Shown: positions 11,845 through 63,690 of the stretch, one piece after another
How the letters are laid out: the number at the start of each line of letters is the position of its first letter
Position numbering within the stretch: position 1 is the first letter of the stretch
Source: Bacillota bacterium
GTDB lineage: Bacteria > Bacillota > Dethiobacteria > DTU022
NCBI GenBank assembly: GCA_033549065.1
Contig: JAWSUE010000005.1
Span: forward strand, 1-64,000
Direction: 5' to 3'
DNA length: 64,000 nucleotides
Notes under the pieces: generated by a model
What the model saw: the letters and a program-made list of their open reading frames with translations, nothing else
Databases searched by the model: none
Told to the model about the DNA's origin: nothing
Program-made: the position numbers and the translations under genes

Positions 11845-11993
11845 CTATAAATCATTCACTTTCTTCTTTTATAATATATTGGCAGTACCTGTAACTATTT
11901 TTTACAAAGCAACCTGTATATATTAATAATATCATAGATAATGAACTTTTATGACCGGGCAAAATGGGCAGAGATAACATAGGATGAACAGCA

Positions 11994-12002
11994 TGTTATA
12001 AT
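11994..12002 (+). promoter_or_regulatory. Extended -10 promoter element
   Basis: TGTTATAAT is an extended -10 box 46 bp ahead of the amidohydrolase start. No good -35 hexamer was found, which is normal for extended -10 promoters. Confidence 0.45.
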
Positions 12003-12047
12003 TAGTAATTGGGTGGAGAAATTTGAGCGCAGGAAAGGATTGATCCT

Positions 12048-16095: not shown

Positions 16096-16972
16096 TATTA
16101 TTACCTCCTGCCCGGGATACAGCAGTTTTAAGAGCTCTGATTGTCAGCTCCCGGATCAGATGGCGGCGGTACTCGGCGGATGCCCGCCATGAGGATCTGG
16201 GACTGGTTTCTTCCAAGGTCATACTGCCGATTTGCTTAATCATTTCTGCCGAGACCTGATTTCCGCAAGCGAGTGATTCGGCCCGGGGGCAGCGTAGAGG
16301 TGTTGGCCCAGCTACACCCAATCCGATTCGGACCTTTTCAAAGTTTTGTTGTTTATCCAGGCGGCAGGCGACAGCAACACCGATAATGGCCAGGTCCATC
16401 GCTTTTCGTGGAGCAAACTTGATATATGTACCGCTGAATCCGGTATAAGCATCTTCGTCGATGTGAATCGCTGTCAACAGTTCACCGGGGCGCAGATCGG
16501 TCTGACCAGGCCCATGATAAAAATCCTTGACAGGTACCGTCCGTTCAGCATCCTGTGATTGCAGGAGAAGTTTTGCCTCATAGACCAGGAGGGCCGGAGC
16601 GCTGTCTGCAGAAGGGACGCCGTTGCATAGATTGCCGCCGATTGTTGCCATTTCACGAAGCTGAGGCCCGCCGATAGACATAGCCGCCTCAACTAACAGT
16701 GGCAAATTTTCTCTGATCAGTGGATGGTTGGCCAGTCTGCTGAAAGTTACCATGGGACCGATGCTTATGCTGCCGTTATCGAGCCGGTTGATCGTATAGA
16801 GGGGGTTGATATTGCGAATACTGATCAGCCGGACACTCTCTAAGGGGTTATTCCGCATATCAATCAGCAGGTCGGTTCCACCGGCAATAATTTTCCGCTC
16901 CGGTTTTTCTGAAAGCAGCTTTAGCACTTCGATAATCGACTCTGCTTCGATATATTCATCGATCCGGTACAT
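16088..16972 (-). CDS. Xanthine-dehydrogenase-type FAD subunit
   Basis: A 294-residue FAD-binding subunit of a molybdenum hydroxylase. RKIIAGGTDLLIDMRN and QLREMATIGGNLCNGVPSAD are the two FAD pyrophosphate-binding motifs of the family (XdhB/CoxM/YgfM). Start ATG 16972 is preceded by AAGGAGGTG; the frame extends further upstream only as overlap with the molybdenum-subunit gene. It overlaps that gene by 17 bp and the 2Fe-2S gene by 8 bp, consistent with a heterotrimer made in fixed ratio. Confidence 0.92.
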   Translation of the reverse strand: MYRIDEYIEAESIIEVLKLLSEKPERKIIAGGTDLLIDMRNNPLESVRLISIRNINPLYTINRLDNGSISIGPMVTFSRLANHPLIRENLPLLVEAAMSIGGPQLREMATIGGNLCNGVPSADSAPALLVYEAKLLLQSQDAERTVPVKDFYHGPGQTDLRPGELLTAIHIDEDAYTGFSGTYIKFAPRKAMDLAIIGVAVACRLDKQQNFEKVRIGLGVAGPTPLRCPRAESLACGNQVSAEMIKQIGSMTLEETSPRSSWRASAEYRRHLIRELTIRALKTAVSRAGGNNNA

Positions 16973-19295
16973 CAGGAACACCTCCTTGAATAAGGCCGGC
17001 GGCCTTGAAATGTTCAAATGCAATCTGGGGCCGGATCGGTATCCTGTTGATAGCCACTCCCGTTGCATCAAGTATGGCGTTGCGGATGGCCGGCGCCGGT
17101 GATATAGTCGGTGGTTCTCCCAGGGACTTGTTGCCGTAAGGTCCTGTCGGTTCATAAGTTTCTACAAAATCTACCTGTATTTCCGGGGTATCCAGGATGG
17201 TAGGCAGTTTATAATCCAGCAGGTTGTTGTTGAGCGGTTTTCCTGTTTTTCCTTCAAATAGCAGCTCTTCGGAGAGAGCATAACCGAGGGCCATGCTTAC
17301 TCCACCGTGAACCTGCCCTTCTGCAAGCTGCCGGTTGATGATTGTTCCGGAATCATGAACATTGACAATATCTGTAACATCAACCTGGCCGGTTTCGATA
17401 TCTACTTCAACTGCTGCAAAGGTTACACCAAATGAAATGGCATTACTCTGTGCATTATTTGATACATCACTGGTTATCGGTTGGGCGTTTTCCCTGTTGT
17501 AGTAGCTGTAGAGGGCTACTTCGGAAATCGGCATGATCACCTGTGCTGAGTTTTTCGAGTCTTTAAGGACTATAGAGGAATCCCTGATGTCGAGATTATC
17601 CTCGGACAGGCCGGCAATTTCCCGGGCAGCGGATATCACCTTTTCTTTTATCTCGAGGGCTGCTTTTTTAACGGCCATGCCGGATATATAGGTTTGTCTT
17701 GAAGCATAACTTCCCGTATCAAAGGGGCTGATATCTGTATCTTGGGTGGTTACAACATGGACCATATCGGTAGGAATTCCGATCGTTTCGGCTGCAATCT
17801 GGGCCAGGACCGTATCGCTGCCCTGGCCTATTTCGGTGGCGCCGATTTGCAGTTGTACGGAACCATCCTGGTTTAAAATAGCCCGGGCTCCGGCAAGTTC
17901 CATACAGGTCGGATAAGTTCCTGTTCCATAACTTAAACAGGCTATTCCGAGCCCGCGTCGTTTTTGATCGCCTTTTGCATTGATATCTCTGTGCAGGGCT
18001 TTTTTCTCATCCCAGGCGATCATCGCTTTACCTTTTTCCACGCATTCCCTGATCCCGCAGCTTAATATGCGATTACCTGTATTAGGGTCAGTATAGCCGA
18101 CTTTATTGAAGTTTTTCAGGCGCAGTTCGACCGGGTCAATGTTCAGTTTGCGGGCAATATTATCAAGGTGCGACTCGAGGGCAAAAGCTATCTGTGGCGA
18201 ACCGTAAGCGCGCATTGCCCCGGCCACAGGTAGGTTCGTGTAGACAGTTTTCGGAGCGAATTCGATTGCTTCAAAGGAGTAAAGATATTTGAACTTTGAA
18301 CCACCGGCAGCGATAACCGAGTGACCGTGAGAAGCATACGCTCCGGTATTGGAAAAGGCTTCAGTCTTGATACCCAGCAGCTTGCCTTCCTTGGTTACTC
18401 CGGTTTGCAGTTTTATTTTGGTCGAGTGGCGCGTCCGGGTGCAGGCCATGTATTCTTCCCTGGTCAATTCAAGCCTGACCGGCCGGCCTCCTACGGCCAT
18501 GGTCATGGCTGCATTAAGTGGTTCAATGCAGGCATCCTGTTTTCCGCCGAATCCGCCGCCCACGTATGGCTTGATGATCCGGATTTTGCCCCAGGGTATG
18601 CCCAGGGCTTGCCCGACAATACGCCTACAGATATGCGGTATCTGGGTGGAAGATACAATAACCAATCGTTCGTCGCTTTCCATGTAAGCATAGGAAACAT
18701 GGTTTTCAAGGGCGCAGTGCTGGACAATTCCGGTCTCCGTTTCGTCGGTAAAAATGAAGTCGGCTTTTTCCATGGCTTCCCCGAGATCGCCTATAACGTA
18801 ACCTGCAGAACTTAAAACATTGGTGCCACGTTCTTCGTGAACCAGGGGAGCATCCTTGTTCAGTGCCGCATCTATCGTAAAAACCGGCTGAAGTATTTCA
18901 TAATCAATTTCGATCAGTTTAAGCGCCCTGGCCGCTGTAAGATCATCAATAGCCACTACTGCCGCTACTTCATCGCCGACATACCTTGCTTTGCTGGTCA
19001 GGATTGTCTTATCGGCAACATCGCCGTGCCTGGTATCGAGTGAATAAGGGTGACCGGCGGTAGGATAGATATTCCGGGGCACATTCTGATAGGTTAAAAT
19101 TGCCTCGACTCCGGGAAGTGCTTCGGCTTTTGTGGTATCGATACTTTTTATCCGGGCATGAGCGTAAGGGCTGCGAAGCACCTTGCCGACCAGCATGTCG
19201 GCAACAAAGAAATCACCGGTATATTTCGCCTTTCCTGTTACTTTGGCCAGGGCATCTGAACGTTGCGGGCTTTTCCCGATACTGGAACCTGCCAT
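16956..19295 (-). CDS. Xanthine-dehydrogenase-type molybdenum subunit
   Basis: A 779-residue molybdopterin-binding subunit: GKSPQRSDALAKVTGKAKYTGDF opens the hammerhead domain (the run is in two parts around residue 16), PYVGGGFGGKQD binds the cofactor, AYGSPQIAFALESHLD follows, and GEPPTISPAPAIRNA contains the catalytic-Glu region typical of the family (LGEPP). It is the catalytic subunit, hydroxylating a purine or other N-heteroaromatic with water. Subunits are encoded in the order Mo, FAD, 2Fe-2S. Substrate not provable; xanthine or hypoxanthine is likely from context. It is 18 bp downstream of ssnA. Confidence 0.92.
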   Translation of the reverse strand: MAGSSIGKSPQRSDALAKVTGKAKYTGDFFVADMLVGKVLRSPYAHARIKSIDTTKAEALPGVEAILTYQNVPRNIYPTAGHPYSLDTRHGDVADKTILTSKARYVGDEVAAVVAIDDLTAARALKLIEIDYEILQPVFTIDAALNKDAPLVHEERGTNVLSSAGYVIGDLGEAMEKADFIFTDETETGIVQHCALENHVSYAYMESDERLVIVSSTQIPHICRRIVGQALGIPWGKIRIIKPYVGGGFGGKQDACIEPLNAAMTMAVGGRPVRLELTREEYMACTRTRHSTKIKLQTGVTKEGKLLGIKTEAFSNTGAYASHGHSVIAAGGSKFKYLYSFEAIEFAPKTVYTNLPVAGAMRAYGSPQIAFALESHLDNIARKLNIDPVELRLKNFNKVGYTDPNTGNRILSCGIRECVEKGKAMIAWDEKKALHRDINAKGDQKRRGLGIACLSYGTGTYPTCMELAGARAILNQDGSVQLQIGATEIGQGSDTVLAQIAAETIGIPTDMVHVVTTQDTDISPFDTGSYASRQTYISGMAVKKAALEIKEKVISAAREIAGLSEDNLDIRDSSIVLKDSKNSAQVIMPISEVALYSYYNRENAQPITSDVSNNAQSNAISFGVTFAAVEVDIETGQVDVTDIVNVHDSGTIINRQLAEGQVHGGVSMALGYALSEELLFEGKTGKPLNNNLLDYKLPTILDTPEIQVDFVETYEPTGPYGNKSLGEPPTISPAPAIRNAILDATGVAINRIPIRPQIAFEHFKAAGLIQGGVPDVPDR

Positions 19296-19313
19296 GTAAC
19301 CCCAACTCCTTCC

Positions 19314-20642
19314 TTAAAATCGCTGCCATAATTTTTCGGCCAGTTTCCGGGCGGTTCTGTTAACTTTAAGTTCATCAATACCGGTCATTATCCGGTTGTG
19401 CATCAGTATTTTGCCGGCTGCTATGGTTGTATCCACCATGCTCCCTGAAACACCAAACACCAGGTGCCCGTAATAGTTGTCGGCAGTCAGGGGAGTGGGT
19501 GGATCGTAATTGATTGCGATTATGTCGGCAGCGGCTCCGGGTGTAAGTTCACCCAATTTGGGGGCAAAGAAGTTTGACAATATGCGACTGTTGTTGACAA
19601 ACTGCATTCGGGGAACTTCTATCCAACCGATACGGGGATCCCCCTGGCAATGTTTATGCAGAATATGGGCAATTTTCATCCCTTCAAACATGTCGTTGGT
19701 CATCCCATCGGTGCCCATGCCGATGAGCACACCCTTATCGAGCATCTTTACGACCGGTGCGCAGCCGACTGCATTATTCATATTGGACTGTGGGTTGTGG
19801 GCGACGTTCGTCCCGGTTCGGGCAAGCAGGTCCATCTCTTTCTCGCTGATATGGACACAGTGTGCCGCAAGAGTTTTCGGTCCGAGAAGGTCATACTTGT
19901 CGAGCCTCTCAACTACACCCATGCCATACTTTTTACGACAATCTGCCGCGTCCTCTTTACTTTCGGCCACATGGATATGTATGCCGGTGCCAAGTTCCCG
20001 GGCGGCGAGGGCGCATTTTTCCATTGTTTCAGGGCTTATTGTAAACGATGCATGCATGCCAATAGTTGCGGTTATCATCGGTGAATTTTCATGGGTGCAT
20101 TTATTAATAAAAGCGATATTTTCTGACAGGCCATTGTTCATTCTTTCCGGACCATCCCTGTCGCTCACTTCGTAACAGAGATTAACCCTGATCCCGGTTT
20201 CCCCGGCAGCATGGGCGATCTGTTCCAGGCTGCCGCTGATAGCGTTGGGACTGGCATGGTGATCAAGCAAGGTGGTGGTGCCGTTTTTTATAGATCCGAT
20301 AAATGTAACCAGTGCGCTGTAATAGATATCCTCGGGGGTCAGGGCTTGATCGAGCCGCCACCATAGTTTCTTAAGGACCTGGGGAAAGCTGACCGGTGGT
20401 TCTTCTTTCAGGGAGATACCTCTGGCAAATGCACTGTAGGAATGGGTATGAACGGAGGTGAAGCCCGGCATGACCAATTTATTCCGGCAGTCGATGAAGG
20501 AAGCCCGGGGAAAAGTATTTTTAAGTTCTTCAGTGTCTCCGATCCGGGCAATCGTTGATCCATCGACCAGGACAGCTCCGCCCCGAATCACCCGGCAGTC
20601 AGTACCCAAAGTCAATAACGTCCCATTTCCCAGTAACAGCAT
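19314..20642 (-). CDS. ssnA: SsnA-type amidohydrolase
   Basis: A 442-residue amidohydrolase. Metal-binding motifs are TSVHTHSYSAFARG (H65, H67), GIHIHVAESKEDA, LAAHCVHISEKE and MGTDGMTND. Together with flanking xdhD and the Mo-hydroxylase subunits it matches SsnA of the ygfK-ssnA-xdhD cluster, a putative aminohydrolase in purine or uric-acid breakdown. Its ATG overlaps the stop of the xdhD-type gene by 1 bp (TAATG), so translation is coupled. Confidence 0.88.
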   Translation of the reverse strand: MLLLGNGTLLTLGTDCRVIRGGAVLVDGSTIARIGDTEELKNTFPRASFIDCRNKLVMPGFTSVHTHSYSAFARGISLKEEPPVSFPQVLKKLWWRLDQALTPEDIYYSALVTFIGSIKNGTTTLLDHHASPNAISGSLEQIAHAAGETGIRVNLCYEVSDRDGPERMNNGLSENIAFINKCTHENSPMITATIGMHASFTISPETMEKCALAARELGTGIHIHVAESKEDAADCRKKYGMGVVERLDKYDLLGPKTLAAHCVHISEKEMDLLARTGTNVAHNPQSNMNNAVGCAPVVKMLDKGVLIGMGTDGMTNDMFEGMKIAHILHKHCQGDPRIGWIEVPRMQFVNNSRILSNFFAPKLGELTPGAAADIIAINYDPPTPLTADNYYGHLVFGVSGSMVDTTIAAGKILMHNRIMTGIDELKVNRTARKLAEKLWQRF

Positions 20643-23449
20643 TATTGCTCTCCCTTTATTTTTTTTAATTCAGCAGCAATTTTTCTTTTTGTGGCAGGTA
20701 GATCGGTAATCCGTACTCCGGTGGCATTGTTAATGGCGTTGATAATGGCCGGTGCAGTGGGGTTGAGTGGAAGCTCACCCATACCTTTTGCCCCGTATGG
20801 TCCATCCGATTCTTCCTCAACCAGGATGATTTCCATATCGGGAATATCCCTGATCCTAGTAAGGCCGATTTTGGCCAGGTTGTCGGTTATCATATAGCCC
20901 TGTTCCATGATAAATTTTTCGCTCATACCGTAGCCCACACCCATTACTACTGCACCTTCGATTTGGCAGCAGCTGTTTTGATAGTGGATTGCCCTGCCCA
21001 GGTCCTGGGCGGCGATAATTTTTAAGACCTTTACTTCTCCGCTGGATTCATCAACCTCAACGACAGCGGCCTGAGCGGCGTAACAATAGGTGAAGTGAAC
21101 ATTATATTTTTCCAACGGCAGGTGTGCTTCGTGATCAGCCCGCTCACGCAGGGGGTATGTAGTTGGAGCGGTATAGGTATATTCTCCGGCCAGGGAGAAT
21201 CCTGCACGGTTTGCAGTCCGGGCCAGTTCGTGATAGGAGATGAAGCGATCGGGCTGGTCCAGGATAATCAATCCGCCCGGGGCAAATTTGTAATCAATAT
21301 TGGCAAATCCGAAACACTCGGCAATGCATTTTCTGAGGGTGGAATTAAAAATATTGGCGGCTCCCAGTACGGCATGTCCAGAAATATAGGTTTGACGCGA
21401 TGCGGTGGTAATCCCTCCGTCAGGGGTTTGGGCGGTGTCATTTGAAAGAACCTGGAAATCCTCGTAAGGAAGACCTGTTTCCTGTGCGGCCAGCTGCGTA
21501 AGGGCGGTGTCTGAACCCTGGCCCATATCGGTGGCGCCCACCTTGAGAATTAGATTTCCTTCCAGATCAATTTCAATCTTGGCCCCGGCCTGGTCGTTTT
21601 TACCTGCTCCAAGTCCAACATTTTTATAGGCTCCGGCAATTCCGATCCCAATTCTTTTCCCCGGAGTCGGCGCATGCAGCATTTTTTTATAACTTTGCAG
21701 TGAATTTTTAACCGCTTCCAGTGCTTTAAGATAGCCGCAGTCATTATTTATAACCTGTCCGGTGATTGTCGTTTTACCGGAGGCCAGGCTGTTTATTTCT
21801 CGCAGATCAAATGGATCCATCTGCAGCGCTTCAGCCAGTTTGTCCATCTGCATTTCCGAACCGAAGGCAACCTGGGTGGTACCAAAGCCCCTGAATGCGC
21901 CTGAAGGAGGGTTATTGGTGTATACACCGTATGCATCAGTTTTTACATTGGGTATGGAGTACGGCCCGGCGGCAATGATACCTGCCCGAAACACAACCGG
22001 CTTGCTGAGCGATTCATAAGCCCCGGCATCGAGGAATATTTTTGCTTCCATGGCAATTATCCTGCCATCAGCGGTTGCTCCGTGACGGTAGTGCATTTCA
22101 GCGCTGTGCCGCTTTGTGGAGATGATCAGCGATTCGCGACGGGTCAGGGTCATCTTGACCGGCCTGCCGGTAACAAGGGTGCCTAAGGCACAGTGGATCT
22201 GGACGGTCGGTTCTTCCTTTCCCCCGAAAGCACCGCCTGCCGGTGTGTATATAACTCGAACTTTATTGGTGGGCAAATTTAAAGTGGCAGCGATCATATC
22301 CCTGAAAGCATGTGAGCCCTGGCTGGCAGTCCAAACGCTGACTACCCCGTTGCTATCCATTCTCGACACGGCCGCCTCCGGTTCAAGGTAGGCATGCTCC
22401 ACAGCCGGAGTTCTGTATACACCTTCAATAATAACAGCCGCTTCCTTGAAAGCTTTCTCTGTATCGCCCTTGCGGACAGGTATGTGATGTGCCATGTTAC
22501 CTTCCGGGTGAAGGGAAAATGCTTTTTCGACCAGGCCTTCTTTAGCACTGAATATGCCGGGCAGCATCTCGTAATCTACATTTATAAAGGGTAGGGCGGC
22601 TTCGGCTTCTGTTTCGCTCTCAGCCAAAACCAGTGCTACCGGTTCACCGGTGTAACGAACCTGATCACCGGCGAGGACGGGCTGGTGGGGATTGAGGAGG
22701 CCGAAACCATTTCGGCCTGGAATATCATCAGCCAGCAGTATCTTCTTAACGCCAGGTTGGGCCAATGCTTTCTGGATTTCTATCTTTTTGATTCTTGCCG
22801 ACGGATAGCGGCTTAATAGTAATTTCCCGAAAAGCTGACCTTCAAAATTCAGGTCATCGGCATATATAGGCGTTCCCTGCACTTTCGGCAGGGCGTCTTT
22901 TTTTAGGGGAGAAGCTCCGATAAGGGAATTTTCAATTCGGCTATCCCGGGGAAGATCAGATTGACGTGAAAGGATTATCTCGCCCCGTATGTTTTGGGCC
23001 GCAAGTTGAACTGCCCTTACAATTGCTGCATACCCGGTGCAACGACATAGATTAAAGCGGAGGGCTTCCTTGATTTCTTCGGGTGAAGGGTCGGTATTTA
23101 CGTCCAGAAGAGCCTTTGTGGCCATGATCATGCCCGGTGTGCAAAAACCGCACTGGACGGCACCTTCTCGTATAAAAGCCTCCTGTAGAGGGTGGAGTTG
23201 ACCATTCGATGCCAGGTTTTCAATAGTTTCGATTTGGCTTCCAGTCAACCTGTTAATCTTAACTGTACAGGCTCTCTTTGCTTTGCCGTCGATAAGTACC
23301 GTGCAACTTCCGCAGTGCCCTTGGTTACAACCTTTCTTGGTTCCCATCAAACCAAGTTCGCTCCTGAGGTAATCAAGCAAAGAAATATTCCCGGGACCTT
23401 CAACCTGACGGGAAAGACCATTAACTTTAAAAGAGATCGGGCCTGTCAT
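20642..23449 (-). CDS. xdhD: XdhD-type fused 2Fe-2S/molybdenum hydroxylase
   Basis: About 935 residues. An N-terminal 2Fe-2S module (CNQGHCGSCTVLIDGK; CGFCTPGM; LCRCTGYAAI) is followed directly by a full molybdopterin domain (LPKVQGTPIYADD, GGAFGGKEEPTV, GAFRGFGTTQVAFGSE, MGELPLNPTAPAI) with no FAD domain between. This is the layout of E. coli XdhD (about 950 residues). Start ATG 23449 is preceded by AGGTGAGG; a longer reading would run through the transposon end and is rejected. It heads the minus-strand run xdhD-ssnA-xdh subunits-ygeY-ygeW. It likely draws on a partner flavoprotein for electron transfer. Confidence 0.9.
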   Translation of the reverse strand: MTGPISFKVNGLSRQVEGPGNISLLDYLRSELGLMGTKKGCNQGHCGSCTVLIDGKAKRACTVKINRLTGSQIETIENLASNGQLHPLQEAFIREGAVQCGFCTPGMIMATKALLDVNTDPSPEEIKEALRFNLCRCTGYAAIVRAVQLAAQNIRGEIILSRQSDLPRDSRIENSLIGASPLKKDALPKVQGTPIYADDLNFEGQLFGKLLLSRYPSARIKKIEIQKALAQPGVKKILLADDIPGRNGFGLLNPHQPVLAGDQVRYTGEPVALVLAESETEAEAALPFINVDYEMLPGIFSAKEGLVEKAFSLHPEGNMAHHIPVRKGDTEKAFKEAAVIIEGVYRTPAVEHAYLEPEAAVSRMDSNGVVSVWTASQGSHAFRDMIAATLNLPTNKVRVIYTPAGGAFGGKEEPTVQIHCALGTLVTGRPVKMTLTRRESLIISTKRHSAEMHYRHGATADGRIIAMEAKIFLDAGAYESLSKPVVFRAGIIAAGPYSIPNVKTDAYGVYTNNPPSGAFRGFGTTQVAFGSEMQMDKLAEALQMDPFDLREINSLASGKTTITGQVINNDCGYLKALEAVKNSLQSYKKMLHAPTPGKRIGIGIAGAYKNVGLGAGKNDQAGAKIEIDLEGNLILKVGATDMGQGSDTALTQLAAQETGLPYEDFQVLSNDTAQTPDGGITTASRQTYISGHAVLGAANIFNSTLRKCIAECFGFANIDYKFAPGGLIILDQPDRFISYHELARTANRAGFSLAGEYTYTAPTTYPLRERADHEAHLPLEKYNVHFTYCYAAQAAVVEVDESSGEVKVLKIIAAQDLGRAIHYQNSCCQIEGAVVMGVGYGMSEKFIMEQGYMITDNLAKIGLTRIRDIPDMEIILVEEESDGPYGAKGMGELPLNPTAPAIINAINNATGVRITDLPATKRKIAAELKKIKGEQ

Positions 23450-23499
23450 TCGCCTCACCTTTATAAAGTAATTTCGCACAGAAAAGAAAAACTCCTCCT

Positions 23500-23526
23500 G
23501 TGTCAGAGGGACGGGGTACTTGACAC
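23500..23526 (+). repeat. Left inverted end of RAYT unit (copy B)
   Basis: A 27-bp element with GTGTCA and TGACAC tips and a GAGGGACGGGGTACT-like core. It is the exact reverse complement of 24343-24369 and resembles the element at 7923-7947. Confidence 0.75.
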
Positions 23527-23566
23527 GTTTTCTATCTACCGATATATTCAGCAGGGAGGTGTTAAG

Positions 23567-24340
23567 ATGCCGAGACAGGCCAGGAGAAAAAGTAAAAGTG
23601 GGATATATCATATTATTATTCGAGGACTTAACAGACAGGTAATTTTCATAGACGAGAAGGATAATCTACGATTTCTCGAGACGTTAAAGCGTTACAAAGA
23701 AGAATGCGGTTATAAGCTATATGCATACTGCCTTATGGGTAACCATCTTCACCTGCTGATTCATATAGTTGAAGAACCACTTGAGCAGGTTATGAGGCGG
23801 GTCTGTGGAAGTTTTGTGTATTGGTATAACAAGAAATATGATCGAACTGGAAATCTTTTTCAGAACAGATTTAGAAGTGAAGCGGTTGAAGATGATTCAT
23901 ACTTTTTGACCGTGCTTCGGTACATTCATCAAAATCCTTACAAAGCCGGAATTGTAATGGAACATGAAGAATATATATGGAGTAGCTATAACAGTTATCG
24001 ACATCCTGAAACAAATGAATTAAATCTGATTGATAGGGATTTCCCTCTGAAAATATTTGGAAATAATAATGAAAGGGCATTGAAATATTTTATAGAATTT
24101 CACAATCAGCAAGGAAATGATAAATGCCTTGATTTTAAAGATGATATTCGAAAAGGCGATCTTGAAGCAGCAGAAATTATTGAAACCGTATGTGGTGTTA
24201 ACTGTTCAGGGTATCTGAGAAATTTGGAGAAGAAAAAACGGGATTTGATACTAAGACATTTAAAGAAAGAGCATAACCTGACAATCAGGCAGTTAGAAAA
24301 GTTTACCGGGATCAACAGGGGGATTATTCAGAGGGCTTGA
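23567..24340 (+). CDS. REP-associated tyrosine transposase (RAYT, Y1_Tnp)
   Basis: A 257-residue HUH transposase. The HUH motif is GNHLHLLIH, the tyrosine is in RYIHQNPYKAGIV, and IYHIIIRGLNRQVIFIDEKD is the family's typical N-terminus. A C-terminal helical region (about residues 185-257) contains a TIRQLEKFTGINRGIIQ helix-turn-helix-like end. Start ATG 23567 has GGGAGG 7-8 bp upstream. RAYTs act on REP palindromes, cutting single-stranded hairpins, and the flanking 27-bp palindromes are the probable substrates. The gene is intact, so the enzyme may be active. Confidence 0.9.
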   Translation: MPRQARRKSKSGIYHIIIRGLNRQVIFIDEKDNLRFLETLKRYKEECGYKLYAYCLMGNHLHLLIHIVEEPLEQVMRRVCGSFVYWYNKKYDRTGNLFQNRFRSEAVEDDSYFLTVLRYIHQNPYKAGIVMEHEEYIWSSYNSYRHPETNELNLIDRDFPLKIFGNNNERALKYFIEFHNQQGNDKCLDFKDDIRKGDLEAAEIIETVCGVNCSGYLRNLEKKKRDLILRHLKKEHNLTIRQLEKFTGINRGIIQRA

Positions 24341-52788: not shown

Positions 52789-53979
52789 CTACCCAACCTT
52801 TACGACTAGTGCTGCCGCCGTATCACCGGCTGCACAACCGGTGACCAGGGCATATCCGCCTCCTATAATAACTGCTTCTTCTATAGCCTCAATAAGCAGG
52901 CGCGCCACTGTAGGAGCCTGTGGATGACCGAAAACCATGGAACTGCCGTAATTATTAATTGAGGCAGCTTCAACACCGAGTTTCTTGGCCAGGTACATAT
53001 CATTGACGATAAAGGGATTGTGGTTTTTGATTACAGCCAAATCTGTTGCCTTCAGGCCTGCCCGCTCAAGGGCTGTTAAGGCTGATGGAACTGGAGCCAT
53101 CGGCATAAAGGCTTTTTTTGTGCGGGCGAATCCGTAAGAAATAATCTGAATGGGGATCTTGGGATCGGCGCTCAGTTTCGCCGCCTTTTCCCTGGTTGTA
53201 ACTATAATTCCGGCATTTCCATCTGCAGGGTGGGTTTGCGCACCGACAGTTAGAATGCCACCTTCCAGAGTGGGACGTAAACGTTCCAGGGCCTCTTTTG
53301 AAGTAGTTGCCACTCCTTCATCTGTTTCCACCAGCAGAATTTCTTTCCTTGACAGAGTGGCTTCCACCGGGAACATATAACGTTTTTGAAATGCCCTGTC
53401 ATCAGCAAGTGATTTATTATATTGTTCATAGCGGATTAATACAAGCTCATCTGCTTCCTGGCGGGTAAAACCTTCCTCTTTAACAACGTTTTCTGCCGTA
53501 ACGATCATACCGTAACCTGTTGAAGGATCTGCACGCATATTATCTAAATTCCAGTTTTCCGATATGACTTCCCCTCCTGGGCCCAAGGGATTTGGCCAGA
53601 CGGTATGAGGTCCGTTGGAACATCGGTCTACAAGTAAACAATAGGCAGTATCCACGTTGCCTATCTCCACAGCCATGCTTGCGTTAAATACTGTTGTGGT
53701 GGCCGTCGAACACGCCTGCATAATGGTCATTCCGGGAATATCGGGTGCACCCATCATGAAAGCGGCCCAGGTGGCGCCGAAAAAGACACGGTGCTGTCCG
53801 ACGGTGATACCCAGGTACAGGTAGTCTAATTCCTGTGGATTGATATTTTTACTTTCAAACCAGCGTTTGCTGGTTTTAGCACCCAGTTCAATGGCATTAT
53901 CGTTTTGCAAACTGCCCTGCCATTTGCAAAATGGCGAGCTGTAATAACCTTTGTAAGGGATATAGCTCCTGGAAAACAT
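52789..53979 (-). CDS. Thiolase-family protein
   Basis: A 396-residue thiolase. The acyl cysteine is in IMQACSTATTTVFNAS, the histidine in VIKNHNPFIVND, and the second cysteine in LVTGCAAGDTAAALV. The N-terminus is shorter and less typical than acetyl-CoA acetyltransferases, more like SCP-x/aceto-acetyl types of anaerobes. It cleaves a 3-ketoacyl-CoA with CoA. It is 14 bp downstream of the fused dehydrogenase/hydratase gene. Stop codon is TAG. Confidence 0.88.
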   Translation of the reverse strand: MFSRSYIPYKGYYSSPFCKWQGSLQNDNAIELGAKTSKRWFESKNINPQELDYLYLGITVGQHRVFFGATWAAFMMGAPDIPGMTIMQACSTATTTVFNASMAVEIGNVDTAYCLLVDRCSNGPHTVWPNPLGPGGEVISENWNLDNMRADPSTGYGMIVTAENVVKEEGFTRQEADELVLIRYEQYNKSLADDRAFQKRYMFPVEATLSRKEILLVETDEGVATTSKEALERLRPTLEGGILTVGAQTHPADGNAGIIVTTREKAAKLSADPKIPIQIISYGFARTKKAFMPMAPVPSALTALERAGLKATDLAVIKNHNPFIVNDMYLAKKLGVEAASINNYGSSMVFGHPQAPTVARLLIEAIEEAVIIGGGYALVTGCAAGDTAAALVVKVG

Positions 53980-53993
53980 ATTTGCACTCCTTT

Positions 53994-56039
53994 CTATTTA
54001 CCTGAATATTTTGGTGGGCGACCCGGCGGTGATTGTAAACCGGCCAGAGCATCATCTGTTGCGAAAATATCATAAAGCCGGGCCAGTTCCAGTTCTATGG
54101 CCTCTTCAGTTGATACCCCGGATTGAGCATCCATCAGTTCGTTCGCCATCTGCAGGGCGATCGGCGCTTTGGTAGAAACGATACTTAAAGTTTTTTCTGC
54201 CAGCGCAGGATCTACACCCTGCGGCATCTCACCTTTTAATAGTCGACTGATGTTATCACTGCCGCCTAAAATTTTTGCCGCCTTAAATTTTTCCGGAATT
54301 TCTCTTGGCCGATACTTGTCGAATTTTCCATTTGCGATGATGTCTCTGATTGCATTTTCGATATCGGCTTTTTCAACCAGTTTGGTAACAATCCCGAGCG
54401 CATGAGCATCTGCTGCGTTGATTAGTTTGCCGGTGAAAATATAATATTTTGCCAGTTCAAGCCCGAGGTGACGTTCCAGGCGAAACATCCCGCCAAGTCC
54501 GGGGAAAATGCCGATTGCTGCTTCCGGGAAACCGAGAGAACCATTCGGTGTGGCTACAATAGCCTGGCAGGCCAATGCTACCTCGCTTCCGCCACCCAGC
54601 GAAAGGCCATCTAAAAGGGCGATGGTCATTTTGGGTGAGTTTTCGAGCTTTAAGAGTATATCATGTCCTTTACGGGTAAAGGCATAGGTTTTATCGACAG
54701 TTTTGGATTTTATATTATCAACAAAGAACTTGATATCTGCACCGGCGATGAAAGCCTTTCCTGCGCCCCTGATCACGATTGCTTTGACGGAGTTGTTTTT
54801 CTCGGCTTGATCAAAATTCTTTTCCAGCTGCTCCATAACAACCGGGTTTAGCGCATTCATTGCTTCCGGTCGGTTGATTGTTATGTAAGCAAGGTCGCCG
54901 GTTATTTCAAGGTCAACGTATTTAAACTCGAAGGGGGTACCTTTTTCTTTCTGCTTAATCAGAAGCTCCGGCATTTTGAAATCGGGATGCCTATTACTCA
55001 GTTCTTTTACCAATTGATAGGCTTTTTCGATGCCGAGACTGTTTATCAGTTCAAAAGGTCCCTGACGCCATGCCAAACCGATTTTGATTGCCCGGTCGAC
55101 ATCTTCGATAGTAACCACACCTTCGTCTACCTGGGCGCAGGCAACGCCGATGGCAACAGCATAGAGGCGCTCGGCAATGATATCCATCTTGCTCTCATCT
55201 ATTTCGCCTTCCAGTGAAAAATCTGCATTTAAGTCTTCAACCTGATGCCGCAGCAACTCGGGTGGAGCATAAAAATTGCCCAATTCTCTGCCCAGGTTTT
55301 TTGCGCCATGCAATCCGATAACGGTTCCTCCGGACATATTCCAAAGTTCGAAGAGTCCGATTCCGATTCCGAAGGCCCGTTTGGTTCCTTCATTAACAGT
55401 TGGCACATTGGCGATTCCTTCTTCAATAATACGTATAGCTTCCACATACCAGGGAATAAAAATGCGGTTAACACAGAAACCGGGAGAGTCTTTTACCAGA
55501 ATAGGAGTCTTGCCATGCATACTGGTAATCTGGAGAACTTTTTCCCGGGTTTCTTCACTGGTGCCATCGTGAGGGATTATTTCCACCAGGCGGTTTTTGG
55601 CCGGGTGAAAGAAGAAGTGGGTGCCGATAAACCTGTCCTGACGCCTGGTCCACTTTGCCAGGTTGCCCACATAAAAACTGGAGGTATTGGTGGCAAATAT
55701 GGTTTTCGGTTCACAAATTTCATCAAGTTTTGCAAATAACTCGCCTTTAACTTTTTCGTCTTCAAAGATGGCTTCAATTACCAGGTCTGCATCTTTGAGC
55801 TCTTGTAAATCAATGGTACCATTGATCCGGTTCATGATTTCTTCAACCTGCTCCGGAGTGAAGATCTTACGTTCCACCCCCTCCTGTAGGGTTTGCCGGA
55901 TATTGTTCAGACCGCGCTCGATAAATTCTGTTTTGGTATCGACCAGGGTTATTTGCAGTTTCTCCTGGGCCAGTTTTTGAGCAATTCCGCTGCCCATATT
56001 TCCGGCTCCAACGATACCTATTTTATAAGTTTTTCCCAT
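53994..56039 (-). CDS. Fused 3-hydroxyacyl-CoA dehydrogenase/enoyl-CoA hydratase
   Basis: A 681-residue two-domain enzyme with the dehydrogenase first (KIGIVGAGNMGSGIAQKLAQ, TNTSSFYVGNLAK, GTHFFFHPAKN, DSPGFCVNRIFIPW) and the crotonase domain second (about residue 390 on: YITINRPEAMNALNP, AFIAGADIKFF, SLGGGSEVALACQAI). This order is opposite to E. coli FadB. Both steps of beta-oxidation (hydration, then NAD-dependent oxidation) are covered. Start ATG 56039 follows AAAGGAG. It forms an operon with thiolase and CoA-transferase. Stop codon is TAG. Confidence 0.92.
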   Translation of the reverse strand: MGKTYKIGIVGAGNMGSGIAQKLAQEKLQITLVDTKTEFIERGLNNIRQTLQEGVERKIFTPEQVEEIMNRINGTIDLQELKDADLVIEAIFEDEKVKGELFAKLDEICEPKTIFATNTSSFYVGNLAKWTRRQDRFIGTHFFFHPAKNRLVEIIPHDGTSEETREKVLQITSMHGKTPILVKDSPGFCVNRIFIPWYVEAIRIIEEGIANVPTVNEGTKRAFGIGIGLFELWNMSGGTVIGLHGAKNLGRELGNFYAPPELLRHQVEDLNADFSLEGEIDESKMDIIAERLYAVAIGVACAQVDEGVVTIEDVDRAIKIGLAWRQGPFELINSLGIEKAYQLVKELSNRHPDFKMPELLIKQKEKGTPFEFKYVDLEITGDLAYITINRPEAMNALNPVVMEQLEKNFDQAEKNNSVKAIVIRGAGKAFIAGADIKFFVDNIKSKTVDKTYAFTRKGHDILLKLENSPKMTIALLDGLSLGGGSEVALACQAIVATPNGSLGFPEAAIGIFPGLGGMFRLERHLGLELAKYYIFTGKLINAADAHALGIVTKLVEKADIENAIRDIIANGKFDKYRPREIPEKFKAAKILGGSDNISRLLKGEMPQGVDPALAEKTLSIVSTKAPIALQMANELMDAQSGVSTEEAIELELARLYDIFATDDALAGLQSPPGRPPKYSGK

Positions 56040-56110
56040 TATAAATATCTCCTTTCCCAAGATAATTTTTAACTTTGCAATTAGCTAGTCCATATCAAAT
56101 AAGGCGGACT

Positions 56111-57694
56111 TTAACTGCCATATCCTGATTGAATGATTTTCCTTAATTCACCCCATGAGTCAGAAAAAATGTTAACAGGCATGGTTTTCAGGTTGGGTGA
56201 AATTCTTGGTTTAAAGCCCATTTGTGCCAGGACATCTTTTTCCAGATCCACTCCCGGAGCGATTTCAATCAATGTTAAACCTTCTTGCTCGAGAGAAAAG
56301 ACAGCCCTTTCAGTAACGTACAAGGCAGGTTGTTTTATCTTACGAGCATAGCCACCGCTGTAGGTGATCTGATCAACCTTATCGACAAATTTTTGTATTT
56401 TACCCTCATTTATTATGTTTAATCGGTTATTTGCAACTGAAACTTCAAGACCACTGGCAGTGAAAGAGCCGCAGAAAACCACTTTTTTTGCATTTTGGCT
56501 TATATTAATAAATCCCCCGCTGCCGATTACACGGTTACTGAATCTGGTTACATTGATATTTCCATCCTTATCGGCCTGGGCCATCCCCAGGAACGTTAAG
56601 TCAATGCCCCCACCGTCATAATAGTCAAACTGAACATGATGTTCGATTATGGCTTCAGCATTATAGGCATGACCAAAATCAGGTGGGCTCGCCGGAACTC
56701 CGCCTATAGTTCCCGATTCGGTGGTCAGATGCATCAAATCCGCAGCTCTTTCTTCTGCAGCCACGGCAGCAACATCAGCAGAAATACCTATACCGAGGTT
56801 AACTATAGCATCAGGACTGAGTTCCATGGCTGCCCGTCGGGCAATCACTTTGCGCTCGTTGAGGGTTAATGGCGGGAGAGCAGATAAAGGGACCCGGATG
56901 TCTCCGGCGAATGATGGATTAAAGTATACTCCTTCAGTTTGAAAATGGTTATAGGTATCTTTACATTGAACAACATGGTCAATCAATATACCCGGAACTT
57001 TTACCCTTTTAGGATGAATTGTATTTGGCTGGGCTATATATTCAGCCTGTGCGATAACTATTCCACCGCAATTCTTGGTTGCCTGGGCCAGGGGCAGTGT
57101 TTCCAAAAAAATACCTTCTTTATCCATGGTCAGGTTGCCGTTTTCATCGGCAACTGTACCCCTGATTAAAGCAACATCAACCTGGAAGGTTTTATAGAAG
57201 AGATATTCCTCATTTTCGATTTCTATTACCTTAACAATGTCTTCGACAGTTATAGAATTCATTTTTCCGCCTTCAACACGCGGATCGACAAATGTTCCGA
57301 GCCCTACTTTTGTGATCAGGCCGGGTCGCTTGGCAGCTATTTCTCGCCACAGTTGGACGATCACACCCTGGGGAAGGTTATAAGCTTCAATTTTATTCTC
57401 CTCAACCAGCTTGCGCATTCTGGGAGCCTGTCCCATATGCCCGGCGATCCATTTTTTAACCAGACCTTCATAGCCTAAACGGGTTACACCTCTATCCCTG
57501 CTGTCACCTGCTCCTGAACTTGACACAACTGTTAAATCCCTGGGAGCTCCTGTTTCCAGAAATCTTCTTTCCAGTGCCTGGGCTACTTCTTCAGGCCATC
57601 CCGCCAACCCCATCAGGCTTATTCCCAAAGTTGCATTATCCTTGATAAAACTAACAGCCTCGTCAGCAGTCTTTACTTTGGACAATATAATCAT
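56111..57694 (-). CDS. Family I CoA-transferase (propionate/acetate type)
   Basis: A 527-residue single-chain CoA-transferase. The catalytic glutamate is in MHLTTESGTIGGVPASPP, and two fused CoA-transferase halves are recognisable (INVTRFSNRVIGSGGFINIS in the second). It is like propionate CoA-transferase (Pct) or 3-oxoacid transferases. It would activate a carboxylic acid using acetyl- or another acyl-CoA before or after the beta-oxidation steps encoded just downstream. Confidence 0.88.
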   Translation of the reverse strand: MIILSKVKTADEAVSFIKDNATLGISLMGLAGWPEEVAQALERRFLETGAPRDLTVVSSSGAGDSRDRGVTRLGYEGLVKKWIAGHMGQAPRMRKLVEENKIEAYNLPQGVIVQLWREIAAKRPGLITKVGLGTFVDPRVEGGKMNSITVEDIVKVIEIENEEYLFYKTFQVDVALIRGTVADENGNLTMDKEGIFLETLPLAQATKNCGGIVIAQAEYIAQPNTIHPKRVKVPGILIDHVVQCKDTYNHFQTEGVYFNPSFAGDIRVPLSALPPLTLNERKVIARRAAMELSPDAIVNLGIGISADVAAVAAEERAADLMHLTTESGTIGGVPASPPDFGHAYNAEAIIEHHVQFDYYDGGGIDLTFLGMAQADKDGNINVTRFSNRVIGSGGFINISQNAKKVVFCGSFTASGLEVSVANNRLNIINEGKIQKFVDKVDQITYSGGYARKIKQPALYVTERAVFSLEQEGLTLIEIAPGVDLEKDVLAQMGFKPRISPNLKTMPVNIFSDSWGELRKIIQSGYGS

Positions 57695-59166: not shown

Positions 59167-59172
59167 TATAAT
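59167..59172 (+). promoter_or_regulatory. Likely pyl operon -10 element
   Basis: TATAAT 26 bp upstream of the tRNA-Pyl 5' end. No convincing -35 was found. If used, transcription would start about 20 bases before pylT. Confidence 0.45.
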
Positions 59173-59198: not shown

Positions 59199-59270
59199 GG
59201 GGGGTGGATCGGATTGATCATGCAGACTCTAAATCTGTATAGCCGGGTGGAACTCCCGGACTCCCCGCCA
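59199..59270 (+). tRNA. pylT: tRNA-Pyl (anticodon CUA)
   Basis: A 72-base tRNA with encoded CCA. Acceptor stem GGGGGGT/ACTCCCC (59199-59205 with 59260-59266, one G-U), one base, D stem GATC/GATC with a 5-base loop, one base, then a six-pair anticodon stem TGCAGA/TCTGTA around loop CTCTAAA (anticodon CTA), a 3-base variable region, T stem CCGGG/CCCGG and loop TGGAACT. The short D loop, six-pair anticodon stem, single base between acceptor and D stems, and 3-base variable region are hallmarks of tRNA-Pyl. pylSc follows 40 bp downstream. Confidence 0.95.
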
Positions 59271-59310
59271 CTTAACTATCCGGCTCTAGATTATTATTGA
59301 AATGCGGTGA

Positions 59311-60153
59311 TTGAAAACGTTTGATTGGACGGATATTCAAAAACAAAGATTACAGGAACTTGGAGCAGCGGAAGCCGATTTTACACTCCATTTCAGGAGC
59401 GCTGAAGAACGAAACAGTCGTTACCAGGAGATCGAAACTGAACTGGTGCGCCGGGGTAAGGAACAGCTGCTCGATTATCGCGATCACATTCGCAGGCCGG
59501 CAATCCTGCAGCTTGAGCACTGCCTGGTGGATGTATTAACAGAAAAAGGTTTTTCCCAGGTTACCACACCCCTGCTGCTCTCAAAAGGACTGCTGGCGAA
59601 AATGACTATCACCGAAGAGCACCCACTGTTCAGGCAGGTATTCTGGATAGATTCCAAACGCTGCCTACGTCCGATGCTTGCTCCTAACCTCTACTATGTT
59701 CTGAAGGATTTGCTGAGAATATGGCCACATCCGGTAAGCATATTCGAGATTGGCCCCTGTTTTCGCAAGGATTCTCAGGGAGGAAGTCATATGCAGGAAT
59801 TTACCATGCTCAACCTGGTTGAGATGGGTTTACCCGAAGCGGATCGTCAGAAAAGGATCAGAGAATTGGCTCAACTGGTTATGAATGCTGCCGGAATAGA
59901 AAATTATAGTCTGGAGACAGAGAGTTCTGATGTGTATAAGGAAACTATAGATGTGCTTTGCGGTGACCTGGAGCTTGGCTCGGGAGCAATGGGTCCGCAT
60001 GAACTGGATCTGCAGTGGGGAATTGACGTCCCCTGGGTGGGAATAGGTTTTGGTTTGGAACGCCTGGTTATGGTCCGGCAGGGTCATAATAATATACAGA
60101 AATCGGGTAGGAGTCTTACATACCTTAATGGTATTCGATTAAACCTTAAGTGA
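59311..60153 (+). CDS. pylSc: Pyrrolysyl-tRNA synthetase, catalytic subunit
   Basis: A 280-residue class II synthetase core, equal to the C-terminal half of archaeal PylS. Motif 2 is FEIGPCFRKDSQGGSHMQEF with FTMLNLVEMG, where N168 corresponds to the substrate-gating asparagine of PylRS, and motif 3 is VGIGFGLERLVMV. It charges tRNA-Pyl with pyrrolysine. The tRNA-binding N-terminal part is a separate gene (pylSn, 63364), as in bacterial systems. The start seems to be TTG 59311; a mini-frame ATGCGGTGA directly upstream may affect initiation. Confidence 0.93.
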   Translation: MKTFDWTDIQKQRLQELGAAEADFTLHFRSAEERNSRYQEIETELVRRGKEQLLDYRDHIRRPAILQLEHCLVDVLTEKGFSQVTTPLLLSKGLLAKMTITEEHPLFRQVFWIDSKRCLRPMLAPNLYYVLKDLLRIWPHPVSIFEIGPCFRKDSQGGSHMQEFTMLNLVEMGLPEADRQKRIRELAQLVMNAAGIENYSLETESSDVYKETIDVLCGDLELGSGAMGPHELDLQWGIDVPWVGIGFGLERLVMVRQGHNNIQKSGRSLTYLNGIRLNLK

Positions 60154-60210
60154 TCTATTTAATTGGTGCGCGGGAATAATGAAGCTGGGTAAATCAACAG
60201 GTGAGATTTA

Positions 60211-61296
60211 ATGAACAAAGAGATGAGAGAAACAAAAATCAGGCAAATTAAAGGCAAAGCCAGGGAACTGAAATTTCTTGAAGATGAAGAAATCTTATTC
60301 CTGCTCAATCTTCGTGAAGAGAATGAAACAAAACTACTTTTCAAAGCTGCCCGGGAAATGCGCAGCAGCTATTTCGGTAAAAAAGTATTTCTGTACGGGT
60401 TTATATATTTTTCCACCTATTGCCGTAATGATTGCACATTCTGTTTTTACCGGCGTTCAAATCCCGAGAGTGAAAGATACCGCAAGTCGAGAGCGGAGAT
60501 TATCGATACTGCAGAAAAATTAACTGAATCAGGTGTTCACCTGCTGGATTTGACAATGGGGGAAGATCCTAATTATTTTTCCACCGGCTGTTTTGAAGAG
60601 CTGCTCGAGACGACGGCCCTGGTAAAAGAACTTACCGGAATGCCGGTTATGATCTCACCCGGCGTGGTTCCGAAAGATATTTTAAGTGAGTTTTGCCGGA
60701 TAGGAGTTGACTGGTATGCCTGTTACCAGGAGACACATAACCGGAAACTTTATGAAAAATTAAGGATCCACCAGGATTATGACGAAAGACTCAATTTAAA
60801 ATATTATGCGCATGAGCTTGGTATGCTGGCCGAAGAGGGTTTGCTGGCAGGTGTTGGAGAGACAGCTGAAGACGTGGTTCAGTCCTTCAAGGTAATGAAG
60901 GAACTAGAAGCTGACCAGGTAAGGGTGATGAGTTTTGTTCCACAGAAAGGGACTCCCCTGGAAAATGTTAAAGTTATACCCCGTCTGCGGGAAATGGTGA
61001 TCATTGCCATTATGCGCTTGCTTTTTCCTGATCGGTTAATTCCCGCATCACTTGATGTAGACGGTATTTCCGGTTTGAAAGACCGACTTAATGCCGGCGC
61101 GAATGTGATAACCTCTTTAATACCTCCTGATCAGGGTCTCTGTGGAGTATCCCAGAGTACACTTGACATCAGGGAAGGCGGAAGAACAGTGGCCGGAACT
61201 CTACCGATTTTGAAAAGCTGCGGTCTGGAATCAGCTTCAAAATCAGATTATGCAGAATGGATTAAAAACCGAAAGAAATTATATATTCAAGTATAA
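60211..61296 (+). CDS. pylB: 3-methylornithine synthase (radical SAM)
   Basis: A 361-residue radical SAM enzyme. The CxxxCxxC cluster motif is YFSTYCRNDCTFCFYRR (C71, C75, C78), with LLDLTMGEDPNYF and MISPGVVPKDIL in the barrel. PylB isomerises L-lysine to (3R)-3-methyl-D-ornithine, the first step of pyrrolysine synthesis. AGGTGAG precedes ATG 60211, and pylC starts 20 bp after the stop. Confidence 0.93.
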   Translation: MNKEMRETKIRQIKGKARELKFLEDEEILFLLNLREENETKLLFKAAREMRSSYFGKKVFLYGFIYFSTYCRNDCTFCFYRRSNPESERYRKSRAEIIDTAEKLTESGVHLLDLTMGEDPNYFSTGCFEELLETTALVKELTGMPVMISPGVVPKDILSEFCRIGVDWYACYQETHNRKLYEKLRIHQDYDERLNLKYYAHELGMLAEEGLLAGVGETAEDVVQSFKVMKELEADQVRVMSFVPQKGTPLENVKVIPRLREMVIIAIMRLLFPDRLIPASLDVDGISGLKDRLNAGANVITSLIPPDQGLCGVSQSTLDIREGGRTVAGTLPILKSCGLESASKSDYAEWIKNRKKLYIQV

Positions 61297-61316
61297 TAAA
61301 CCCGGGAGGTCATTAA

Positions 61317-62492
61317 ATGCGTGCTGCTGTTATTGGCGGAAGGCTCCAGGGTCTTGAAGCCGTTTATTTGGCCAGAAAAGCCGGTTGGGATATAGTGCTG
61401 GTAGATATTAAATCTTCAGTTCCTGCTCAGAATATGGCTGACACTTTCTACTTAACTGATGCCCGAAGAAAAGACGAACTGGCGGCAGTTTTGTCCGGAT
61501 CGGACATTATCATACCCGCTCTTGAAAACAGGGCCGTTTTAGCCAATCTCATTGATACTGCAGAAGTGCTGGATATTCCTCTGGCTCTCGACTTAAATGC
61601 ATATGATCTTTCTTCATCGAAAATTGCTTCCGATCAGCTCTTTGAGGATATCGGAGTGGCTTATCCAAAACATTGGCCTGGCTGCTGTTATCCCCTGATT
61701 GCCAAACCAACCGGAGCAAGTGGGAGTGAAGGGGTGATTCGGCTGCAGGATGAATCCGATCTGGAGTTGTTCAGAAAAAAGATAGGTGATGAAGAAGACC
61801 GATGGGTTCTCCAGGAGTATCTTACCGGTCCATCCTATTCTATTGAAATAATCGGCTATAAAGGGGAATATCTACCTTTGCAGGTAACCGGCCTTGAAAT
61901 GGACGATATATACGATTGCAAAAGGGTTCTTGCGCCGGCTGACCTGTCTGAGGAATTAAAGGATCACTTTTCCGCGTTAGCGACAAATATTGCAGAAGAA
62001 ATTAATTTGAATGGTATTATGGATGTGGAAGTGATTTTAAATAAAGGTGTTCTCAAAGTGTTGGAAATAGATGCTCGTCTGCCCAGTCAAACCCCAACTG
62101 CAGTTTTCCATTCGACGGGAATAAATATGCTTGAAACTCTTACCGCGACGTTCATAAATGGTCGGTTGAACAAAGATGTTATAGTTGAAGATAAGAAAGC
62201 GGTTATTTTTGAACATATTTTTGTCTCCCCCGGTAAAATTACTGTTAGTGGGGAACATGTAGTATCTGAAGCTGGTCCGCTGGCCCTTCTGGAAGATTTT
62301 TTCGGTGCTGACGAAGCATTAACCAATTATGCCCCGGGTATGGAAAAATGGATGGCCACATTAATCATAACCGGCAGTGATTCAACTGATGTCCGTAATA
62401 AAAGAGAGTCAGTAATCAAGCGGCTTATGACTGAAATGGATCTAATAGATTATCTGGATCCTGAACCCCGGGTTCAAGATATTAAATCGTGA
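61317..62492 (+). CDS. pylC: 3-methylornithine-lysine ligase (ATP-grasp)
   Basis: A 391-residue ATP-grasp ligase: AVIGGRLQGLEAVYLARKAG at the N-terminus, PLIAKPTGASGSEGVIRLQ (ATP lid), VEVILNKGVLKVLEIDARLP (metal-binding end). It joins 3-methylornithine to the epsilon-amino group of a second lysine. GGAGG is 8 bp upstream of ATG 61317. Order and spacing between pylB and pylD fix the assignment. Confidence 0.93.
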   Translation: MRAAVIGGRLQGLEAVYLARKAGWDIVLVDIKSSVPAQNMADTFYLTDARRKDELAAVLSGSDIIIPALENRAVLANLIDTAEVLDIPLALDLNAYDLSSSKIASDQLFEDIGVAYPKHWPGCCYPLIAKPTGASGSEGVIRLQDESDLELFRKKIGDEEDRWVLQEYLTGPSYSIEIIGYKGEYLPLQVTGLEMDDIYDCKRVLAPADLSEELKDHFSALATNIAEEINLNGIMDVEVILNKGVLKVLEIDARLPSQTPTAVFHSTGINMLETLTATFINGRLNKDVIVEDKKAVIFEHIFVSPGKITVSGEHVVSEAGPLALLEDFFGADEALTNYAPGMEKWMATLIITGSDSTDVRNKRESVIKRLMTEMDLIDYLDPEPRVQDIKS

Positions 62493-62504
62493 GAGGGCGA
62501 TAAT

Positions 62505-63359
62505 GTGACCAGATTGATTTCGGAACAGGTGGTAAATATACCACATACCCTCAATGAGTATGATGAAGATTTGAAGCGAAAAACCAGTTATTCACTAAAA
62601 GAGATCGCTGTGTTGGCTGTCGGAACAGGGGCGGCAATTATCAATCCTGAAGATTATAAGGTCGCCGTTATTCCTGTTGCATCAGGCCAGGGAATCATCA
62701 GCGGGTTTTCTGAAGCAGTACGGGCGATTGCTGTTTACCTGGGATTTAACTCGTACATAACGGAGGCAGCAGACCTGGGTGGTTTGATCGAGGCCTACCA
62801 GGGTAATACCGATGCTATAATCCTGGCAGATGACTTTAATTATGCGGCTATTAATTTAAATAACCGTAAAGTTGCTGACAATACGGGAGCAACTGCAAAA
62901 GGTTATGTCACCGCCCTGTCAAAAATGGCCGGAGGAATTAAAGACAAGGAAGTTTTATTGATTGGAGCCGGACCGGTTGGCATGAGGGCAGCAGAAAACC
63001 TGTGTGAGGCAGGCGCCATTCCGGTAATTTATGATAGAGATAAAAGAAAGGAGCAGGTACTGGCCGAAGGTCTGAAAAAGAAATTTCACATGGGCATCAA
63101 GTTTGGTCTGAGCCTCGGCGAAATCTTGGATAGGGTCACACTAATTTTCGATGCCTCACCGGGAAGAAATTTGATCAAGGCTGATCAGCTTTCAGAAAAA
63201 ACTATGGTTGCCGCTCCAGGCCTGCCCCTTGGTTTCGATCAGGAGGCCTTAAAAATAATTGAGCCCAGGCTGATACACGATCCCCTGCAGTTGGGAACGG
63301 CTGTGATGCTTTTTGATGTTTTCACCAAACCGTTTCATCAGCTATACCTGGAGGAGTAA
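62505..63359 (+). CDS. pylD: Pyrrolysine synthase (NAD-dependent)
   Basis: A 284-residue Rossmann dehydrogenase with VLLIGAGPVGMRAAENLCEA and a helical N-terminal half (VVNIPHTLNEYDEDLKRKTS). PylD oxidises the dipeptide intermediate so that it cyclises to pyrrolysine. Start GTG 62505 has GAGAGGG upstream. It is 12 bp from pylC and 4 bp from pylSn. Confidence 0.93.
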   Translation: MTRLISEQVVNIPHTLNEYDEDLKRKTSYSLKEIAVLAVGTGAAIINPEDYKVAVIPVASGQGIISGFSEAVRAIAVYLGFNSYITEAADLGGLIEAYQGNTDAIILADDFNYAAINLNNRKVADNTGATAKGYVTALSKMAGGIKDKEVLLIGAGPVGMRAAENLCEAGAIPVIYDRDKRKEQVLAEGLKKKFHMGIKFGLSLGEILDRVTLIFDASPGRNLIKADQLSEKTMVAAPGLPLGFDQEALKIIEPRLIHDPLQLGTAVMLFDVFTKPFHQLYLEE

Positions 63360-63363
63360 GGTT

Positions 63364-63690
63364 ATGGACACAGTAAAGAGATATTACCGTAAAAGGGTTG
63401 AATTTTTTCGTCTGCTTCAGAAGATGAAGCTATGGCCTTCCCGTAAAGGCATATTACACGGGATAAAAACTTTTGAGATAAAAGGCAACCAGGCCATGAT
63501 CACTACCCATTGCAACGAGACTTTTCTGGCTTACAATTCAAAGAACAGCAGGGCTGCCCGTTTTTTACGTAACAAATGGAATTTTACCCCCTGCCCAACC
63601 TGCAGGGTTCCGTCCTGGAAACTTGACAAGTACTCCTCGACCCGCTTCAGCCAGTCCTACGGGTCAGATCTGACCGATAACGAATCCTGA
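63364..63690 (+). CDS. pylSn: Pyrrolysyl-tRNA synthetase N-terminal tRNA-binding protein
   Basis: A 108-residue basic protein: TVKRYYRKRVEFFRLLQKMK, then KGILHGIKTFEIKGNQAMIT (tRNA-binding domain), with zinc-binding candidates in THCNETFLAYN and the C-P-T-C pair of NFTPCPTCRVP. It binds tRNA-Pyl and assists PylSc. Start ATG 63364 is preceded by GGAGGAGTAAGGTT within the pylD end. It completes the operon pylT-Sc-B-C-D-Sn. A perfect palindrome GGTCAGATCTGACC (63662-63675) lies near its 3' end. Confidence 0.92.
   Translation: MDTVKRYYRKRVEFFRLLQKMKLWPSRKGILHGIKTFEIKGNQAMITTHCNETFLAYNSKNSRAARFLRNKWNFTPCPTCRVPSWKLDKYSSTRFSQSYGSDLTDNES

Follow-up and report, generated by a model that had tools for sequence, protein, structure and literature searches.

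The presence of pyrrolysine (Pyl) genes in the 64,000-nucleotide stretch of Bacillota DNA analysed here (the window) raises the question of whether the source organism has a working system for inserting Pyl at UAG codons and, if so, which of its proteins receive it and how UAG can also serve as a stop codon.

An intact pyl operon with a split synthetase

All six genes of the series pylT-pylSc-pylB-pylC-pylD-pylSn were found on the forward strand at positions 59199-63690, with the five protein-coding genes tightly packed after the tRNA gene. The tRNA-Pyl gene, pylT (59199..59270, +), carries a CTA anticodon and encodes its CCA end. It is followed by pylSc (59311..60153, +; 280 aa, TTG start), encoding the catalytic subunit of pyrrolysyl-tRNA synthetase, and by the complete biosynthetic set: the radical SAM 3-methylornithine synthase gene pylB (60211..61296, +; 361 aa), the ATP-grasp 3-methylornithine-lysine ligase gene pylC (61317..62492, +; 391 aa) and the pyrrolysine synthase gene pylD (62505..63359, +; 284 aa, GTG start). 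The last gene, pylSn (63364..63690, +; 108 aa), encodes the tRNA-binding subunit of the synthetase and most likely starts at the ATG at 63364. The five proteins were scored against NCBIfam profiles with curated equivalog or domain cut-offs, and all of them lie well over these values: PylSc (TIGR02367) at 351 bits for a cut-off of 178, PylB (TIGR03910) at 508 for 348, PylC (TIGR03909) at 434 for 248, PylD (TIGR03911) at 250 for 150 and PylSn (TIGR03912) at 125 for 51. The best solved structures were Desulfitobacterium hafniense PylSc for PylSc (3dsq/2zni, E 3e-97), PylB 3t7v (E 5e-86), PylC 4ffl (E 3e-47), PylD 4j43 (E 7e-34) and, for PylSn, the M. mazei-type PylRS N-terminal domain 5ud5. The predicted identities of the Pyl proteins are, on these profile and structure matches, far beyond chance. 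Gene calls, profiles and structures thus confirm the complete bacterial pyrrolysine operon proposed in the first-pass annotation, with the same order, strand and coordinates, as well as its split synthetase, since the PylSc and PylSn domains, both over their cut-offs, are encoded by two distinct genes that lie about 3.2 kb from each other.

Alignment to D. hafniense PylSc shows that the class II motifs are kept in the window's PylSc, and its pocket columns N168, Y209, W242 and R152 are invariant across 13 homologues, so that the active-site residues on which the annotation had made its assignment depend are retained; N168, Y209 and W242 presumably correspond to N346, Y384 and W417 of the M. 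mazei enzyme. In PylSn, residues H32, C50, C77 and C80 align with the zinc-ligand places of 5ud5, and we take this histidine and the three cysteines to be zinc ligands.

The tRNA gene was called by ARAGORN with its CTA anticodon. Its fold has one base between the acceptor and D stems, a 5-base D-loop, an anticodon stem of 6-7 pairs and a variable loop of 2-3 bases, all features listed for tRNA-Pyl (PMC3941956). The D-loop reads GGATT, so pylT does have a GG dinucleotide, which is also found in the D-loop of many bacterial pylT genes. Among 30 homologues, 8 of the 23 helix pairs show two-sided changes that keep the pair. No match to pylT was obtained from Rfam 15 at E up to 1, the generic tRNA family included, and a covariance test with the curated library is therefore uninformative. 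A covariance model was built here from 17 pylT genes, none of which came from the window or its family relatives; with this model pylT scores 94.7 bits (E 3e-23), with all pairs standard and none broken, and the proposed tRNA-Pyl identity holds.

Promoter and terminator scans at the two ends of the operon yielded nothing convincing. Reading the sequence by eye, a TATAAT that might serve as a -10 box lies 27 nt before the tRNA (59167..59172, +); no good -35 element accompanies it, the promoter scan missed it and it is unconserved in relatives, in which no conserved element is evident upstream of pylT. Alternatively, pylT may share a transcript with the MFS gene that precedes it. A beta-oxidation or butyrate-type cluster lies immediately upstream of the pyl region on the opposite strand (52789-57694, -), with genes for a thiolase, for a fusion of 3-hydroxyacyl-CoA dehydrogenase and enoyl-CoA hydratase, and a CoA transferase-like gene. 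Further away, at 16956-23611 (-), two large subunits of the xanthine dehydrogenase type of molybdenum hydroxylase flank an amidohydrolase, in what is likely a cluster for purine or N-heterocycle degradation.

Target methyltransferases in the same genome

Candidate targets were sought across the source genome, an assembly of 61 contigs totalling 2.39 Mb (97.8% complete) that probably derives from a metagenome. Nine genes of the MttB family and three MtbB genes were found, of which two and three, respectively, contain exactly one in-frame TAG, and in all five the frame is otherwise open on both sides of this codon. When the TAG of the MttB gene on contig C3 is read as a residue, it falls exactly on Pyl334 in an alignment to Methanosarcina barkeri MttB (7xcm), the catalytic residue of that enzyme (PMC9842639). 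The TAG of the MttB gene on contig C4 occupies the equivalent position in the same motif, and those of the three MtbB genes share one alignment column. Genes for B12-binding corrinoid proteins adjoin two of the three mtbB genes, and the third is adjacent to one of the MttB genes on C4. MtmB was not found in the genome, and monomethylamine use is for this reason unsupported. One further MttB gene (L006) had appeared to contain an internal TAA; this is the same-frame stop of the upstream gene, hence no recoded codon.

The first-pass annotation had recognised no methyltransferase in the window, had placed the target proteins elsewhere or among new proteins, and had made its reading depend on in-frame amber genes in the genome. 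Such genes are present, and the five targets do lie elsewhere in the same genome; they are of the usual kind, not new.

UAG as a stop codon and as a Pyl codon

The use of UAG was surveyed in the window and 15 further stretches, about 364 kb of the 2.39 Mb genome, where simple codon-based calling yielded 239 genes. With the five Pyl sites set aside, 52 of 234 genes (22%) terminate in TAG. With this share of ordinary stops in the sample, UAG has two meanings in this genome, and a constitutively active system would often read through normal stops. Backup stops are no closer after TAG, with a median extension of 13 codons versus 10 for TAA; the mtbB gene on contig C8 itself uses TAG as its stop, followed by a TAA three codons further. 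A dual meaning of UAG has been published for other bacteria, and bacteria with Pyl are described as handling the codon by regulation, not by codon avoidance (PMC3941956). No regulator was found at the pyl operon; a sigma-54 activator gene adjoins one mtbB cluster, with a periplasmic binding protein gene also near.

Within the sampled 364 kb, mid-gene TAG codons were found in the five methyltransferases only. Three other long in-frame continuations after TAG (C2:170404, C6:89775 and C4:143415) were rejected as Pyl genes: they resemble tandem neighbours in the same frame, and long continuations follow TAA and TGA about as often.

Function of the operon

The gene content and its intactness, the in-frame TAG genes, the TAG position in one MttB and the co-occurrence of PylSc with TAG-bearing MtbB/MtmB in related genomes (see below) were observed directly, and from them we infer expression, tRNA charging, Pyl insertion, substrate use and regulation. 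The proposed mechanism would run as follows. PylB, PylC and PylD would convert two lysines into pyrrolysine, which PylSc, acting with PylSn, would charge onto the amber-decoding tRNA-Pyl. The charged tRNA would then insert Pyl at the single in-frame UAG of the two MttB and three MtbB messages, and the resulting trimethylamine (MttB) and dimethylamine (MtbB) methyltransferases would hand methyl groups to corrinoid proteins. The ambiguity of UAG may be managed, as an analogy with published bacteria suggests, by expressing the cassette on demand, not by purging UAG from the genome. With a probability of roughly 95%, we regard the locus as a functional bacterial Pyl cassette that inserts Pyl at the UAG codons of five methyltransferases, in a genome where UAG is a dual-use codon managed on demand.

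Two other explanations bear on this reading. The operon could be a silent or decaying relic, in which case the TAG-bearing methyltransferases would end early in the source organism. Decay of this type does seem to occur in a related genome (G036), which has a tRNA with a mutated anticodon and broken helices, in which pylSc, pylB and pylC were not found, and which has nonetheless been left with TAG-bearing genes. The window departs from that pattern at each point: its six genes are intact, the active-site and zinc-binding residues are kept and no tRNA pair is broken, and each of the five target genes remains open beyond its TAG, which makes a relic very improbable. The operon could, on the other hand, also serve one or more Pyl proteins outside the methylamine methyltransferases, encoded in the remaining 85% of the genome. 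The scan for mid-gene TAG codons covered only the 364 kb sample and leaves room for such proteins; within it, however, the five methyltransferases stood alone, and the three other continuations, no more frequent than those after TAA, resemble neighbouring genes. We therefore judge additional Pyl proteins improbable, and retain a functional cassette serving the five methyltransferases as the preferred reading.

Distribution and relationships

In the class to which the source organism belongs, PylSc scored over the cut-off in 19 of 98 genomes, and one more has a fragment at a contig edge. Of these 20 genomes, 17 have TAG-bearing MtbB or MtmB genes, counting MtbB fragments, versus 1 of the 78 others (Fisher p 4e-15, a value that overstates independence because the compared genomes are related). 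One scan of species genomes returned 349 PylSc-like candidates, the best 80 of which come from Bacillota, Thermodesulfobacteriota, Myxococcota, Chloroflexota, Aminicenantes and others, so that PylSc occurs in at least four named phyla and in unranked candidate groups. In view of these numbers, the annotation's description of the split synthetase as rare is out of date.

In a PylSc tree, the window's protein falls into a group of 8 rows (support 100/100) with other MAGs of its own Bacillota lineage, the nearest being two MAGs labelled Syntrophomonadaceae; it shares about 71% identity with the closest named MAG and about 60% with Desulfosporosinus. The order T-Sc-B-C-D-Sn is common to many of the loci compared, and pylTScBCDSn is described as one of two arrangements usual in bacteria (PMC3941956). 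Desulfitobacterium, Desulfosporosinus and other bacteria with this layout share the same six genes, the split synthetase and the order seen here, and the window's operon differs from the Desulfitobacterium/Desulfosporosinus type by sequence divergence only, although in many Desulfosporosinus loci pylSc and pylB are separated by an additional stretch of well over 1 kb. Candidatus Formimonas warabiya DCMF (Peptococcaceae) likewise combines a split-synthetase pyl cluster with mtbB and with MttB genes with and without Pyl (PMC6778437), but has 82 mttB genes and 23 Pyl methyltransferases, against nine and five here, where mtmB is absent. The pylTSBCD system of Methanosarcina shares the pathway, the tRNA type and the Pyl position in MttB; its PylS is one fused protein, whereas that of the window is split, and Methanosarcina-type archaea avoid UAG as a stop (PMC3941956), which is not the case here.

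The window's operon is therefore a new and clean instance of a system that is already well known; it is ordinary for its kind and not a new system. Here, in an uncultured Bacillota lineage, a natural genetic code expansion and the enzymes it targets are both available in well-assembled form, in a genome where UAG is still a common stop. The diverged PylSc/PylSn/tRNA set, with a PylSc about 60-70% identical to others, could serve genetic code expansion work, and the related genomes, with their intact, rearranged and apparently decaying cassettes, suit the study of how code expansion is lost.

Altered cassettes in related genomes

In G036 (L157, contig C69), a pylT remnant (190-260) lies directly before intact pylD (425-1267) and pylSn (1286-1648) genes. 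The remnant has the loop CCCCAAA in place of CTCTAAA and broken helix pairs, and scores 62.5 bits; pylSc, pylB and pylC were not found in the genome, in which three MtbB and 5-6 MttB genes still carry an in-frame TAG. The pattern suggests that the pyrrolysine code was lost recently, unless the assembly is at fault. G065 (L138, contig C29:20001-40000) has only pylSn-pylSc-pylC (9764-12107); neither pylB, pylD and pylT nor any TAG-bearing MttB, MtbB or MtmB was found in its genome, and its pyl set is incomplete and without a known target. Both the apparent loss in G036, the oddest case observed in the analysis, and the reduced set in G065 are further from the ordinary than the window, but they rest on fragmented assemblies.

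Rearranged loci were also observed. G032 and G033 (L158 and L159) have a pylT-B-C-D-Sn operon without pylSc, which in both genomes stands alone on another contig (L043 and L046). In G027 (contig C103, L141), pylT, pylSn, pylSc, pylD and pylB are present and the contig stops before pylC is visible; all 12 of its MttB genes lack a TAG, and MtbB and MtmB were not found. Finally, G010, G020, G022 and G075 carry MtmB-family genes that lack a TAG and score 251-339 bits, versus more than 700 for TAG-bearing MtmB; one of these genomes, G022, has pyl genes. The TAG-less genes are possibly a non-Pyl MtmB subfamily with another substrate.
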